A stretch of 64,000 nucleotides of DNA from NCBI GenBank assembly GCA_018675335.1, contig JABGYH010000001.1, forward strand, positions 186,908 through 250,907, given 5' to 3'. Below the pieces are notes generated by a model. That model was not told the DNA's origin, made no database searches, and saw only the letters and a program-made list of their open reading frames with translations. Shown here piece after piece: positions 37,111 through 53,457 of this stretch; within the stretch, counting starts at the first letter, position 1; each line of letters begins with the position of its first letter. Origin of the DNA: Candidatus Woesearchaeota archaeon (lineage in GTDB: Archaea > Nanobdellota > Nanobdellia > Woesearchaeales > UBA11576). A program made the position numbers and the translations under genes.

Positions 37111-37189
37111 AAATTCACCTCTTTTTTAAATATTTAATAAAAAAAACAATTATGAAAATAAAATCTATTAATTATAATCAAACAAATAA

Positions 37190-49298: not shown

Positions 49299-51299
49299 AT
49301 GATGTTAAAAAAAAGCATATCAAAAAACATTTCAATATTATTTCTTCTAATTATCAGCTTACTATTACTACTATCTCAATCATTATTTGTAGTAGCAGAA
49401 CATCAAGAAAAGCAAGGGTCTCTAAAAATACTTGCAGTAAGCACAACTGATTCAGGATTCAAAGGTGCAAGTGCAACACTTTCTCTAAAAATAACTCCTG
49501 GAAACGGAGAAGTATTTATTCAAACATTCCCCTTAACAAAAATTGATACTCAAATATCCACAAGATATGCAAAAGACACTGCCTGCAAATTAAGTAGTGT
49601 TGATTGCAGCAAATTAGATTTTTTTTATACAGTTAAATCAAACTCAGCAATAATTGGCGGACCAAGTGCTAGTGCAAGTTTTGCAATTTTAACAATAGCA
49701 CTACTAGAAGACTTACCCCTAGATCCAACCGTTGCTCTTAGCGGAACTCTCAATTCAGGTCAAACAATAGGCCCAGTTGGAATGCTAAAACAAAAAATTG
49801 CAGCAGCCAATTCAGAAGGATTAACTACAGTTCTAATTCCTTTTGGCCAAGCAGACTTTGAAGAAAATATAATTCCTAAATCAAACCAATCAAATGAAAA
49901 TATAACTACTAACAAAACAACAACACAAATTAATTTAATAGAATATGGAAAAGAACTAGGAATAACAGTTAAAGAAGTATCATACTTAAATGATGCATTA
50001 AAAGAATTTACAGGATACCAATTTGAAGAAATTGAAGGTGACGTAATAATTAATCCACAATATGCAAATGTGATGAAAGGTGTCGCAGTGGATTTATGTG
50101 GAAGAAGTAAAACATTAAAAACTAAATTTGAAAGTATCAAATATAATGTTGAAATGACTGAGCCAAATAAAACCGCACCCCAAATAATTATTAATTCAGA
50201 AGAAAAAGCAAATAGTCTTCTATCAAAAGGAGATTTTGCGTTTGAAAATAATAATTTTTACACCGCAGCGTCTTTTTGTTTTGGTTCAAATGTGCAATTT
50301 CAAAATTTAATTCACGAATTAATCAACAAAAACGATGAACAAAATAAAATTGAAATTGAAAAAATCAATGCTTCTTTAGATTTATTTGAAAAAAATCTTG
50401 ATTCTACTAAAATAAAAACAATTGCAGATCTTCAAGCATACATGATTGTTAAAGAAAGAGTTTTAGAATCAAAAAATCTAGTTAAAGAATCATCAAACAA
50501 TAAAGGATATACAGGATATCTTATTGAAAGATTTAATAGTGCGCAAAGTTGGAGTTCATTTTTAGGCCAACCTGGAAAAGAATTCAAATTAGATAACGAC
50601 GCATTGAAAAAAAGTTGTTCTGATAAATTAAATGAAGTTGATGAACGTCTCCAATATCTTAATTTAATGTTCCCAAAACCAGCAGAAGAATTAAAAAATA
50701 ATTTTAAAGATGCATTTAGTTATGTTGAAGATAATAAATATGCATTATGTTTGTTCAAAGCATCTAAAACCAATGCAGAAGTTAATATGTTTTGGAGTTT
50801 ATTAGGAGTTCAAGAATCAGATTTTGAAATTGTGTTATCAAAAAAATTAGAAGCAGCAGAAAAATCAATAGTAAAACAAATCAATAATGGAATTTTCCCA
50901 ATTCTAGCTTATTCCTATTATGAATATGCAGATTCATTAAAAGACTCAGATAATAAAGGTGCTGCATTTATTTATGCAGAATATGCACTAGAATTATCAG
51001 ACATCGATAGCTATTTTGAAACAACTCAAGTATTTTCTGAAACCAAAAACACCCCTGCATTAAAACTTGTTAATCCAAATAACCGAGTAGTCATTGGTGG
51101 CGCAACAGGAATCACCGGAGACTCAATTAAAAATCCCCCATTACAAAGTATTACCACAACACAATTTACATCATGTTTTTTTGTATTACTTATTGGATTT
51201 TTTACAGGGTACCTTATTTGTTTACTAACTAAAAAAAGAGTTTTTAGTCCAGTTAATTCAGATTCTTGGAGAAAAACAACCCTCAAATTAAGAAAATAG
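49299..51299 (+). CDS. Membrane-anchored Lon-type (S16) protease without an ATPase domain
   Basis: 666 residues with AGGTGGA SD. A signal peptide (~10-32) precedes a Lon-proteolytic domain (about 40-240) with IIGGPSASAS (nucleophile Ser near 122) and GPVGMLKQKIAAA (catalytic Lys near 164); both catalytic residues are kept. A long helical region (~250-600) follows, then one C-terminal transmembrane helix (~633-652, CFFVLLIGFFTGYLICLL) and a short basic tail. This is like the archaeal S16 homologues that face outward and lack AAA+ modules. It would cut exported proteins. Ends in TAG. Confidence 0.87.
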   Translation: MMLKKSISKNISILFLLIISLLLLLSQSLFVVAEHQEKQGSLKILAVSTTDSGFKGASATLSLKITPGNGEVFIQTFPLTKIDTQISTRYAKDTACKLSSVDCSKLDFFYTVKSNSAIIGGPSASASFAILTIALLEDLPLDPTVALSGTLNSGQTIGPVGMLKQKIAAANSEGLTTVLIPFGQADFEENIIPKSNQSNENITTNKTTTQINLIEYGKELGITVKEVSYLNDALKEFTGYQFEEIEGDVIINPQYANVMKGVAVDLCGRSKTLKTKFESIKYNVEMTEPNKTAPQIIINSEEKANSLLSKGDFAFENNNFYTAASFCFGSNVQFQNLIHELINKNDEQNKIEIEKINASLDLFEKNLDSTKIKTIADLQAYMIVKERVLESKNLVKESSNNKGYTGYLIERFNSAQSWSSFLGQPGKEFKLDNDALKKSCSDKLNEVDERLQYLNLMFPKPAEELKNNFKDAFSYVEDNKYALCLFKASKTNAEVNMFWSLLGVQESDFEIVLSKKLEAAEKSIVKQINNGIFPILAYSYYEYADSLKDSDNKGAAFIYAEYALELSDIDSYFETTQVFSETKNTPALKLVNPNNRVVIGGATGITGDSIKNPPLQSITTTQFTSCFFVLLIGFFTGYLICLLTKKRVFSPVNSDSWRKTTLKLRK

Positions 51300-51390
51300 C
51301 CCTGCAATTCAAAAAAGTCTTAAATTTTTTATTTTTATTAAATATAAATCTAGTTCTATTAGTTTTAGTATCAAATTTATTAGAAGTTAA

Positions 51391-51524
51391 AAAACCCTGG
51401 CAGAACCCTCCGAAGAAGGTTCCGCTGGGGAAAAAGAGGTGAATATGAAAATTCAGAATTTAAAACCCTGGCAGAACCCTCCGAAGAAGGTTCCGCTGGG
51501 GAAAAAGAGGTGAATATGAAAATT
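51391..51524 (+). repeat. Two 63-bp GC-rich hairpin/SD/ATG modules in tandem (71-bp period)
   Basis: The units 51391-51453 and 51462-51524 match over 63 bp and are separated by 8 nt. Each has a 13-bp stem (51395-51407 with 51418-51430; 51466-51478 with 51489-51501) with one mismatch and two G-T pairs, a 10-nt loop CTCCGAAGAA, then GAGGTG and ATGAAAATT. Loop CTC and stem-adjacent bases CCTC could pair with the GAGG of the SD. The stems are far GC-richer than the surrounding DNA. A TATA-like AAATATAAAT (51339-51348) is 40-50 nt upstream, so the transcript would start just before the first hairpin. Confidence 0.7.
51445..51513 (+). CDS. Possible 22-residue leader peptide between the two hairpin modules
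   Basis: ATG 51445 follows a GAGGTG SD at optimal spacing and runs 22 codons to TGA at 51511-51513. The product is rich in Lys and Pro (MKIQNLKPWQNPPKKVPL then GKKR). Almost the whole peptide after residue 6 is encoded by the second hairpin, so translating it would melt that hairpin and affect access to the second SD at 51507-51512, which the stop codon overlaps. It could equally be a by-product of the repeat. Low confidence as a protein, higher as a control element. Confidence 0.4.
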   Translation: MKIQNLKPWQNPPKKVPLGKKR

Positions 51525-51551
51525 AAAAGTAGTATGCGCTCTTTTTTATTT

Positions 51552-51585
51552 CTACTACATAGTAGCTATAACTCATATTTAAATG
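51552..51585. promoter_or_regulatory. Palindrome CTACTA-CA-TAGTAG before a TATA-like element
   Basis: A perfect 6-bp inverted repeat (51552-51565) with a 2-nt spacer is followed by ATATTTAAAT (about 51575-51584). These lie inside the frame that links the second module's ATG (51516) to the downstream gene, so they could be a second promoter with an operator for the ATG at 51654, or be coincidental coding sequence. Confidence 0.35.
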
Positions 51586-51653
51586 TTTCGGTTTTTTACC
51601 CATTTCGAAGTAGTAACACACCCTTAAAAACATTTGACCCCACAACAAAACAC

Positions 51654-52259
51654 ATGTCCACAAAAGAAAAAAGCACCGAAAAATGCAGCATTTGTGAAAA
51701 AAAGCCATTTCAACAATTAGATGATAAAAATCTCTGCAAAAAATGCTTTGTTTCCATTTTAGAACGAAAAATAAAGAAAAGTACCCGTAACAGCAACAAA
51801 CTCCAAAAAGAAACAAAAGTGTTACTATTTGATTCAATTTCAGAACACATAATTAAAGATGTCATTAAATTACCACTCAATATAACAATTAAAAAATTAT
51901 CTTTCTTCAAAATTAAATCACTCAAAGAAATTAATAAAAATACACAACTAAAAGAATTCATAAAAAAAAATGAGATTCAAAAAGTAATTATTCCTTGGAC
52001 TCAAGACGATGAAGTAGAATTATTTCTGTCAAATTGGTTTGAAGATAAAAAAAATGAACTCCCACAAAAATTTGTTAAATTATTTCTCCCAATTTCAGAT
52101 GTTGCACTAAACACATATTGTAAACTCAAAGAAATTCAGTTCACACCAACAAAAAGAAAAGAACTTTCAAAAAGAATTGATTTATTTGAAAAAAAATATC
52201 CTGGAACCAAAAACAGCATTACTAAAAGTTCAATTATATTCTCAGACATCATCAACTAA
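51654..52259 (+). CDS. Degenerate TtuA/Ncs6-like (CTU2-like) protein with N-terminal zinc knuckle
   Basis: 201 residues from ATG 51654; the frame is open back to the SD-preceded ATG at 51516 (46 more residues, MKIKSSMRSFLFL) so a longer form is possible. Residues ~10-31 have CSICEKK and LCKKCF, the paired CxxC opening of TtuA/Ncs6 tRNA-thiolation enzymes. Further on QDDEVELFLSNWF sits where TtuA has DDEAQT-like ligands, and PGTKNSI ends as there. The SGGKDS ATP-binding P-loop is missing (KVLLFDSISEH in its place). In eukaryotes an inactive partner, Ctu2, pairs with active Ctu1; this could be an archaeal equivalent. Inference, moderate support. Confidence 0.6.
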   Translation: MSTKEKSTEKCSICEKKPFQQLDDKNLCKKCFVSILERKIKKSTRNSNKLQKETKVLLFDSISEHIIKDVIKLPLNITIKKLSFFKIKSLKEINKNTQLKEFIKKNEIQKVIIPWTQDDEVELFLSNWFEDKKNELPQKFVKLFLPISDVALNTYCKLKEIQFTPTKRKELSKRIDLFEKKYPGTKNSITKSSIIFSDIIN

Positions 52260-52392
52260 TATACTTTTTAAAACAAATTCTAGAACAACTCTAAAAATAT
52301 AATGCATATAAATAAAAACCCAAAAGTATGTAAATTCTAAAATTATCTTATATTATTATAAGAGTTATAAGCATTCAAAAAATAGAGGCATA

Positions 52393-53457
52393 ATGAAACT
52401 AAAAACAAAAATATTAATTTTATTATTCGTAATCATCGCTTTAGCCTATAAATTTCAACCAAGTCTACTAGACACGTGGCAATCAAATATTATAACAGGC
52501 AGCACAATAATAGAAGATAAAGTGTCAACTATAATAACTGAAACTACTCAAAATTCAAAAGATCCTCTCCAAATATATTTTTGTCCCAGACAAAACTGTG
52601 CAGATAAAGCATTAGAAACACTCAAAAAAGCAAACTCAAGTATTCATTGTGCTTTATTTGACTTAAATATTCCCGAAATAATTACTTTTTTAGATCAAGC
52701 GGACCAATATGTTGATGTTAAATTAGTCGTAGATGATCACAATTTTGAAGATGTTAAACATTTAAGTTTTGCCAAAAAAGATTCGTCATCACAATTATCC
52801 CATAATAAATTTTGCATAATAGACCAAGAGTGGATATTTACAGGCTCTTTTAATCCAACTATGAATGGCTATTTAAAAAATAATAATAATTTCATTGTTT
52901 TAAATTCTAAAAGTCTTGCTAAAAATTATGAAGCAGAATTTCAAGAATTATGGAATGGCCAATTCGGCAAAGGCCCAACAACAATTAATACGCAAGTTAA
53001 GTTTAATGATATTTTAATTGAAAATTATTTTTGCCCAGAAGACTGGTGTGCAAACCAAGTACTCAACCAAATTGAAAACGCAAATCAATCAGTATATTTT
53101 ATGACATTCTCATTCACACACGACCTCATAGGCGATCTTTTATTAACAAAACATGCAGAAGGATTAGATATTAAAGGAGTGTTTGAAAAGCGCCAACAAA
53201 GCAAATATAGTGAATTTGAAAAACTTAACTCAACAATAAATAAAGGACTTTCATCAGATAAATTAAAAATCAAATTTGATAAAAATTCTGCAACAATGCA
53301 CCACAAAGTATTCATTATTGATAATAAAACAGTTATCACGGGCTCTTTTAATCCAACCCAAAATGGAGATACAAATAATGATGAAAACATGTTAATAATA
53401 CACGACACAGAAGTTGCACAGATGTTTTTAGATGAATTTGAACTTGTTTTTAAGTAA
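52393..53457 (+). CDS. Exported phospholipase-D-superfamily nuclease-like protein with two HKD motifs
   Basis: 354 residues. Residues ~6-22 form a hydrophobic signal/anchor. Two PLD repeats of ~170 residues each open with a YFCPRQNCADKALETLKK/YFCPEDWCANQVLNQIEN block and contain SHNKFCIIDQEWIFTGSFN and HHKVFIIDNKTVITGSFN (HxKx4Dx6GSxN, complete in both). That is a two-site PLD enzyme or Nuc-like endonuclease/phospholipase outside the membrane. Repeated halves suggest internal duplication. Possible roles: DNA or lipid degradation for scavenging. SD GAGGC precedes the ATG. Confidence 0.88.
   Translation: MKLKTKILILLFVIIALAYKFQPSLLDTWQSNIITGSTIIEDKVSTIITETTQNSKDPLQIYFCPRQNCADKALETLKKANSSIHCALFDLNIPEIITFLDQADQYVDVKLVVDDHNFEDVKHLSFAKKDSSSQLSHNKFCIIDQEWIFTGSFNPTMNGYLKNNNNFIVLNSKSLAKNYEAEFQELWNGQFGKGPTTINTQVKFNDILIENYFCPEDWCANQVLNQIENANQSVYFMTFSFTHDLIGDLLLTKHAEGLDIKGVFEKRQQSKYSEFEKLNSTINKGLSSDKLKIKFDKNSATMHHKVFIIDNKTVITGSFNPTQNGDTNNDENMLIIHDTEVAQMFLDEFELVFK

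Follow-up and report, generated by a model that had tools for sequence, protein, structure and literature searches.

Small RNAs of the RoxS/RsaE type in bacteria combine C-rich seeds directed against the Shine-Dalgarno (SD) sequence with terminator hairpins. For two intergenic sRNAs of the archaeon Methanosarcina mazei, sRNA41 and sRNA154 (the latter by way of its loop 2), masking of ribosome binding sites and repression of translation have been reported (PMC5867862). The locus described here lies in a stretch of 64,000 nucleotides from a Candidatus Woesearchaeota archaeon, analysed as a whole and referred to as the window. Like the M. mazei sRNAs it comprises an intergenic RNA gene for which masking of ribosome binding sites is proposed, in this case from sequence alone; unlike them, the RNA is found across a different class of archaea, is far more widespread and has at its free 5' end a short seed that complements the SD consensus itself. 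We treat it as separate and claim no sequence relationship. With the RoxS/RsaE type, compared by description only, it shares an unpaired anti-SD seed and a 3' hairpin with U-tail, but its promoter is archaeal and no relation was detected. A third likeness is to the 3' tail of the 16S rRNA, the anti-SD proper: the AUCACCUC of the RNA is identical to the 3' end of the organism's own 16S rRNA (GGATCACCTCC), whereas the next base is U in the RNA and C in 16S, at a position where mRNA SDs carry A. The RNA further differs from the tail in the hairpin that follows and in having its own gene and promoter.

The locus had drawn attention through two 63-bp copies of a repeat, and these are indeed 100% identical (51391-51453 and 51462-51524, start-to-start spacing 71 nt). 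Exact matches to the core GGAAAAAGAGGTGA within the window are confined to the two repeat sites, and the pair at 51391-51524 is the only locus of the element in the 1.7 Mb of the organism's own genome. The features are as follows.

37115-37128, minus strand: candidate target, SD AAAAAAGAGGTGAA preceding the ATG of a membrane protein of 114 aa; this SD complements the entire seed (predicted pairing)
49299-51299, plus strand: convergent neighbour, membrane protein with a Lon-type (S16) protease domain (PF05362, E 3.8e-7; TIGR00764, 4e-11)
51389-51557, minus strand: predicted small RNA gene, from BRE-TATA spacing, hairpin and U-tract; ~165 nt with both modules, ~95 nt if ending after the first hairpin
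51389-51394, minus strand: U-tract past hairpin 2 (GGGUUUUUU), predicted 3' end, from sequence
51395-51430, minus strand: module 2 hairpin with UUCG loop, from folding
51431-51443, minus strand: module 2 seed UUCACCUCUUUUU, from sequence
51462-51465, minus strand: U-tract past hairpin 1, terminator-like GGGUUUU, from sequence
51466-51501, minus strand: module 1 hairpin with UUCG loop, from folding and covariation
51502-51514, minus strand: module 1 seed UUCACCUCUUUUU, anti-SD, resembling the 16S 3' tail
51549-51568, minus strand: palindrome TAGCTACTATGTAGTAGAAA at the predicted start, which may be an operator or a 5' hairpin; pattern found in 37 of 89 promoters
51576-51591, minus strand: BRE CCGAAAC (51585-51591) and TATA box TTTAAATA (51576-51583), arranged CCGAAAC-A-TTTAAATA
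51609-51618, minus strand: upstream promoter element TGTTACTACT, conserved, one half of a palindrome of the type TTACTACTN4AGTAGTAA
51657-52259, plus strand: divergent neighbour, TtuA/Ncs6-like with an N-terminal zinc finger (NF049949, E 5e-4; 6scy, weak)

When reverse-complemented, each copy reads 5'-AUCACCUCUUUUU-CCC-n(1-2)-stem-loop-stem-n(1-2)-GGG-UUUA-3' with a UUCG or GCAA tetraloop. The sequence-only reading had instead taken the plus strand for the RNA and proposed a leader-peptide or ligand-sensing switch. The letters it pointed to are all present, namely a plus-strand hairpin, GAGGTG, an ATG and a 22-codon ORF (51445-51513, plus strand, translated as MKIQNLKPWQNPPKKVPLGKKR up to the stop), and the plus-strand fold beats its shuffles (z -3.3); the minus strand is still better. 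Among 140 distinct hairpins, the minus-strand form is the more stable in 116 and the plus-strand form in 22 (Wilcoxon P 3e-18), with mean energies of -21.7 and -16.6 kcal/mol, respectively, and G-U positions number 291 on the minus against 93 on the plus strand. Minus-strand loops in this set are CUUCGG in 49 and CGCAAG/AGCAAT in 21 cases. UUCG and GCAA are the two classic stable tetraloops; the plus-strand loops CGAA and UUGC are their reverse complements. Because tetraloops, folding energy and G-U pairs all favour it, we assign the RNA to the minus strand, and by these signatures the earlier reading was made on the wrong one. The RNAs predicted for the window fold better than every shuffle, both at 165 nt (z -6.4) and as the 95-nt single-module form (z -3.8).

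Both in the window, with respect to the flanking genes, and elsewhere, with respect to Lon-like and TtuA-like genes, the RNA lies on the opposite strand. The RNA gene converges with its upstream neighbour and diverges from the downstream one; it is therefore not a leader of the latter, nor its ligand switch, and there is no 5' UTR placement on the strand of a controlled gene. The proposed 22-residue peptide proves to be a chance ORF. Of 127 distinct host modules, no more than 32 have an ATG at offsets 2-9 after GGTG, and in a sister genome (G002) the hairpin is read in a different frame, so that neither frame nor start codon is conserved. The plus-strand ORF and its "SD-ATG" are antisense artefacts: the SD exists as letters, but these are the complement of the minus-strand anti-SD seed. 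An ATG at offset 3 is nonetheless seen 20 times where column frequencies lead one to expect 6.9, about a threefold excess, which may reflect seeds that reach across a start codon. This excess, together with the SD-like GAGGTG and ATG at module 1, is what a plus-strand leader peptide or ligand switch governing the downstream gene has in its favour. Structure, loops, G-U bias and promoter all indicate the minus strand, however, most modules lack an ATG or ORF, and the downstream genes vary, with several hundred bases to the next gene at many loci. On the strand, ATG and context tests we reject this alternative, which is hardly credible.

The stem shows strong covariation in homologous modules, a check that the sequence-only reading had itself put forward. 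When 30 modules are aligned without gaps, 97.4% of cells are paired, double changes occur at 11 of 13 pairs, and covariation is 0.781 as compared to 0.248 after shuffling and at most 0.20 for slid registers. Two further alignments (A2 and A4, the latter with covariation 0.81 vs 0.25) agree with this result, with the qualification that both were fitted to the model and are therefore biased in its favour, and that A2 takes in bacterial chance matches. The 13-nt leading sequence is almost invariant, columns 2-10 nearly so, among 42 matches in loci chosen by the neighbouring protein.

Searching ten genomes from the family at the DNA level recovers the tandem in relatives with diverged stems. Thirty loci were picked solely because they encode a relative of the downstream protein, and a covariance model locates the element in 28 of them. 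The model also detects it in 248 of the 285 genomes examined from the order (Woesearchaeota-type) and in 30 of about 40-44 genomes sampled from sister orders, with 1-3 and occasionally 4 copies per genome. In a pattern scan of 84,980 species, 61 of the 80 matches listed are records named Woesearchaeota, Nanoarchaeota or Pacearchaeota. The bacterial matches (19 of the 80 listed) are dismissed as chance, since they score 24-32 bits where nearly all archaeal matches reach ~40-68; two matches to coding sequences of Rhodobacterales/alphaproteobacteria, scoring 39-44 bits, are also counted as chance.

The element is not tied to a fixed neighbour gene. At least three neighbourhoods occur: the first consists of Lon-like, TtuA-like and PLD genes, the second of RIO1, a toprim (DnaG-like) gene and a KRR1/PNO1 KH protein, and the third of ScpA, accompanied in a few loci by what looks like SMC. 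As the neighbours vary between lineages, we take the element to be a trans-acting RNA gene and not a leader. Repeats elsewhere in unrelated contexts had been named beforehand as an outcome that would speak against the proposal of a switch; the element does recur in this manner, which refutes cis-regulation but not function. We note that Pacearchaeota-type loci (L053, L119, L130, L159 and others) have the RNA beside ScpA, and that L054, L111 and L164 have in common a large gene that appears SMC-like by eye. The arrangement at 49299-53457, consisting of the S16 Lon-like membrane protease, the RNA gene, the TtuA-like protein and a secreted PLD-family protein, shows order-wide synteny. Relatives of the TtuA/Ncs6-like protein, which likely starts at ATG 51657 and not at GTG 51510, occur in 49 of 98 genomes. 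The protein keeps its zinc finger, its PP-loop region seems degenerate by eye, and it is possibly a pseudo-enzyme relative of tRNA thiolases.

Upstream on the RNA strand, a BRE-TATA signature is found in 89 of 105 distinct host loci; the other strand shows it in 3 of 105, and random windows in 1.5% of cases. As a sequence signature, the RNA gene thus has its own promoter. The predicted transcription start in the window is at ~51553-51557 (minus strand). In 14 loci the TATA box lies exactly 31 nt ahead of CACCUC. If the start is taken 26 nt past the TATA box, predicted RNA lengths range from 55 to 231 nt (median 89), and the shortest RNAs (~55 nt) start at (n)AUCACCUC. The conserved upstream element, searched as a loose pattern, occurs in 48 of the 89 promoters as compared to 2.4% of random 45-nt windows, and a palindromic element of the TTACTACTnnnnAGTAGTAA type flanks many promoters, which suggests regulated expression. 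A search for a regulon of the promoter palindrome gave no excess elsewhere in the organism's own genome (17 places vs 40 in the control). The likeness of CTACT..AGTAG to Cas12a repeats was dismissed as chance. From these signals we infer transcription, with a 3' end by termination at GGGUUUU, and an independent minus-strand RNA gene is almost certain as judged from strand, structure, conservation and promoter signature. A palindrome acting at the level of DNA, be it a mobile REP/PATE-like element, a protein-binding site or a mere transcription terminator, would fit the perfect tandem repeat in the window, the GGGUUUU tail and the intergenic position of viral copies. Against it stand the 1-3 copies per genome, the synteny common across the order, the promoter and the invariant 13-nt seed upstream of the hairpin; the many dispersed copies characteristic of mobile palindromic elements (REP/PATE/MITE) were not seen in the 248 genomes. 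We consider such a palindrome highly improbable.

A single base, the 9th, distinguishes the seed from the 16S 3' tail; it is U almost without exception and fits the A preferred in mRNA SDs of the order. In 20 genomes, AAAGAGGTG-N3-9-ATG occurs 272 times (a few of these sites being the RNA loci themselves) as compared to 19 for the reversed-pattern control, a 14-fold excess, whereas the 16S-perfect AAGGAGGTG-N3-9-ATG reaches 57 vs 22 (2.6-fold). Judged by these counts at the deviating base, the seed therefore complements the SD consensus in actual use. Its predicted unpaired probability is 0.74, compared to 0.45 for the whole RNA. The organism's own genome has GAGGTGAT/TT/AA SDs ahead of ATGs, and the minority seed variant AAACACCUC matches GAGGTGTT SDs, which are also common there. 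A second class of seeds, (U)CUAAACACCUCUUUUCCC, often in the promoter-proximal module, is seen in L005, L007, L020, L070, L096, L120 and L148; it complements GAGGTGTT SDs, and several such loci adjoin RIO1 and the KRR1/PNO1 KH gene.

The best explanation as a whole, to which we give a slightly better than even chance, is a trans-acting sRNA that pairs with SDs and represses SD-led mRNAs. The minus-strand gene, with a BRE-TATA promoter of its own, would encode a small non-coding RNA kept across most of the class (Nanobdellia-type DPANN: Woesearchaeota, Pacearchaeota), in which an unpaired 13-nt seed, (A/U)UCACCUCUUUUU, precedes a covarying stem with a UUCG or GCAA loop. The stem, ending in a U-tract, would act like a terminator and stabiliser. 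The seed would pair in vivo with AAAAAGAGGUGAU-type SD sites on the minority of mRNAs having one, and this pairing would bar the 30S subunit, so that SD-led genes are repressed relative to leaderless ones; tandem modules would supply two seeds. The RNA thus probably switches off translation of mRNAs with complementary ribosome-binding sites. That SD masking is its main action is an even call. Several points weigh against the explanation: SD usage is similar in 20 genomes without a match to the RNA and 20 with it, SD sites would seem complementary to any mimic of the 16S tail, and the 12-mer complements in the organism's own genome total 52, barely above the 43 of the reversed control, only those before an ATG standing out.

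The likeness to the 16S tail also allows the RNA to be read as a decoy, which binds GAUCACCUCC-recognising proteins (PNO1/Dim2-type KH, with RIO1/Nob1) and thereby tunes 30S maturation or titrates factors. This main rival would account for the identity of AUCACCUC with the 16S 3' end and for the RNA gene adjoining the RIO1 kinase and the KRR1/PNO1-type KH protein in one lineage group; in work of Jia et al. 2010 (cited in PMC3024409), an archaeal Dim2-like protein reportedly bound a 16S 3'-end fragment. We hold it to be unlikely, as the U at the 9th seed base in place of the C of 16S agrees with the SDs typical of mRNAs but not with the rRNA, and as neighbours in other lineages are unrelated. 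Less likely still, the conserved U5 tract and hairpin would recruit an Sm-like (SmAP) or other RNA-binding protein, with a different function to which the anti-SD match is secondary. Sm sites in general consist of an unpaired CUCUUUUU next to a stem, a form that the RNA has, and its near universality suggests a housekeeping role, but AUCACCUC is conserved as much as the U-tract.

The pattern scan also matched 22 viral contigs, head-tail virus contigs among them, whose hosts are presumably DPANN archaea. These copies are on the coding strand, and several contigs have the element between the large terminase and portal genes (terminase adjoins it in L168, L169 and L172, portal in L165, L169, L170 and L175). 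Their scores range from 28 to 71 bits, and the lowest of them hardly exceed chance level. A canonical BRE-TATA is present in just 1 of 13 viral copies, a point that tells against the explanation as a whole.

Neither strand of the locus reaches a gathering score in Rfam 15, where three chance-level matches, also in an E-value search, concern irrelevant families. The RNA is not reported in the open papers searched, and a term search in the RNA-seq paper on Nanoarchaeum equitans recognised no such RNA. Of the "new control element" once proposed, a conserved, structured and undescribed RNA of control type remains, on the other strand and with another mechanism. Tentatively, and with considerable doubt, it may be a class-wide global regulator in DPANN: a seed copying the 16S tail, with one base fitted to the mRNA consensus, would set the balance between SD-led and leaderless translation under a palindrome-flanked promoter, and head-tail viruses, whose packaging and head operons hold the same module, might use it to seize host translation.

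Hardly anything is known of RNA regulation in uncultivated DPANN archaea. An RNA that is found in most sampled genomes of the class, is absent from Rfam, and has an invariant anti-SD seed as well as viral copies offers a testable handle on translation control in reduced cells and their viruses. It also bears on the persistence of SD use in a minority of genes in organisms that seem to be largely leaderless.
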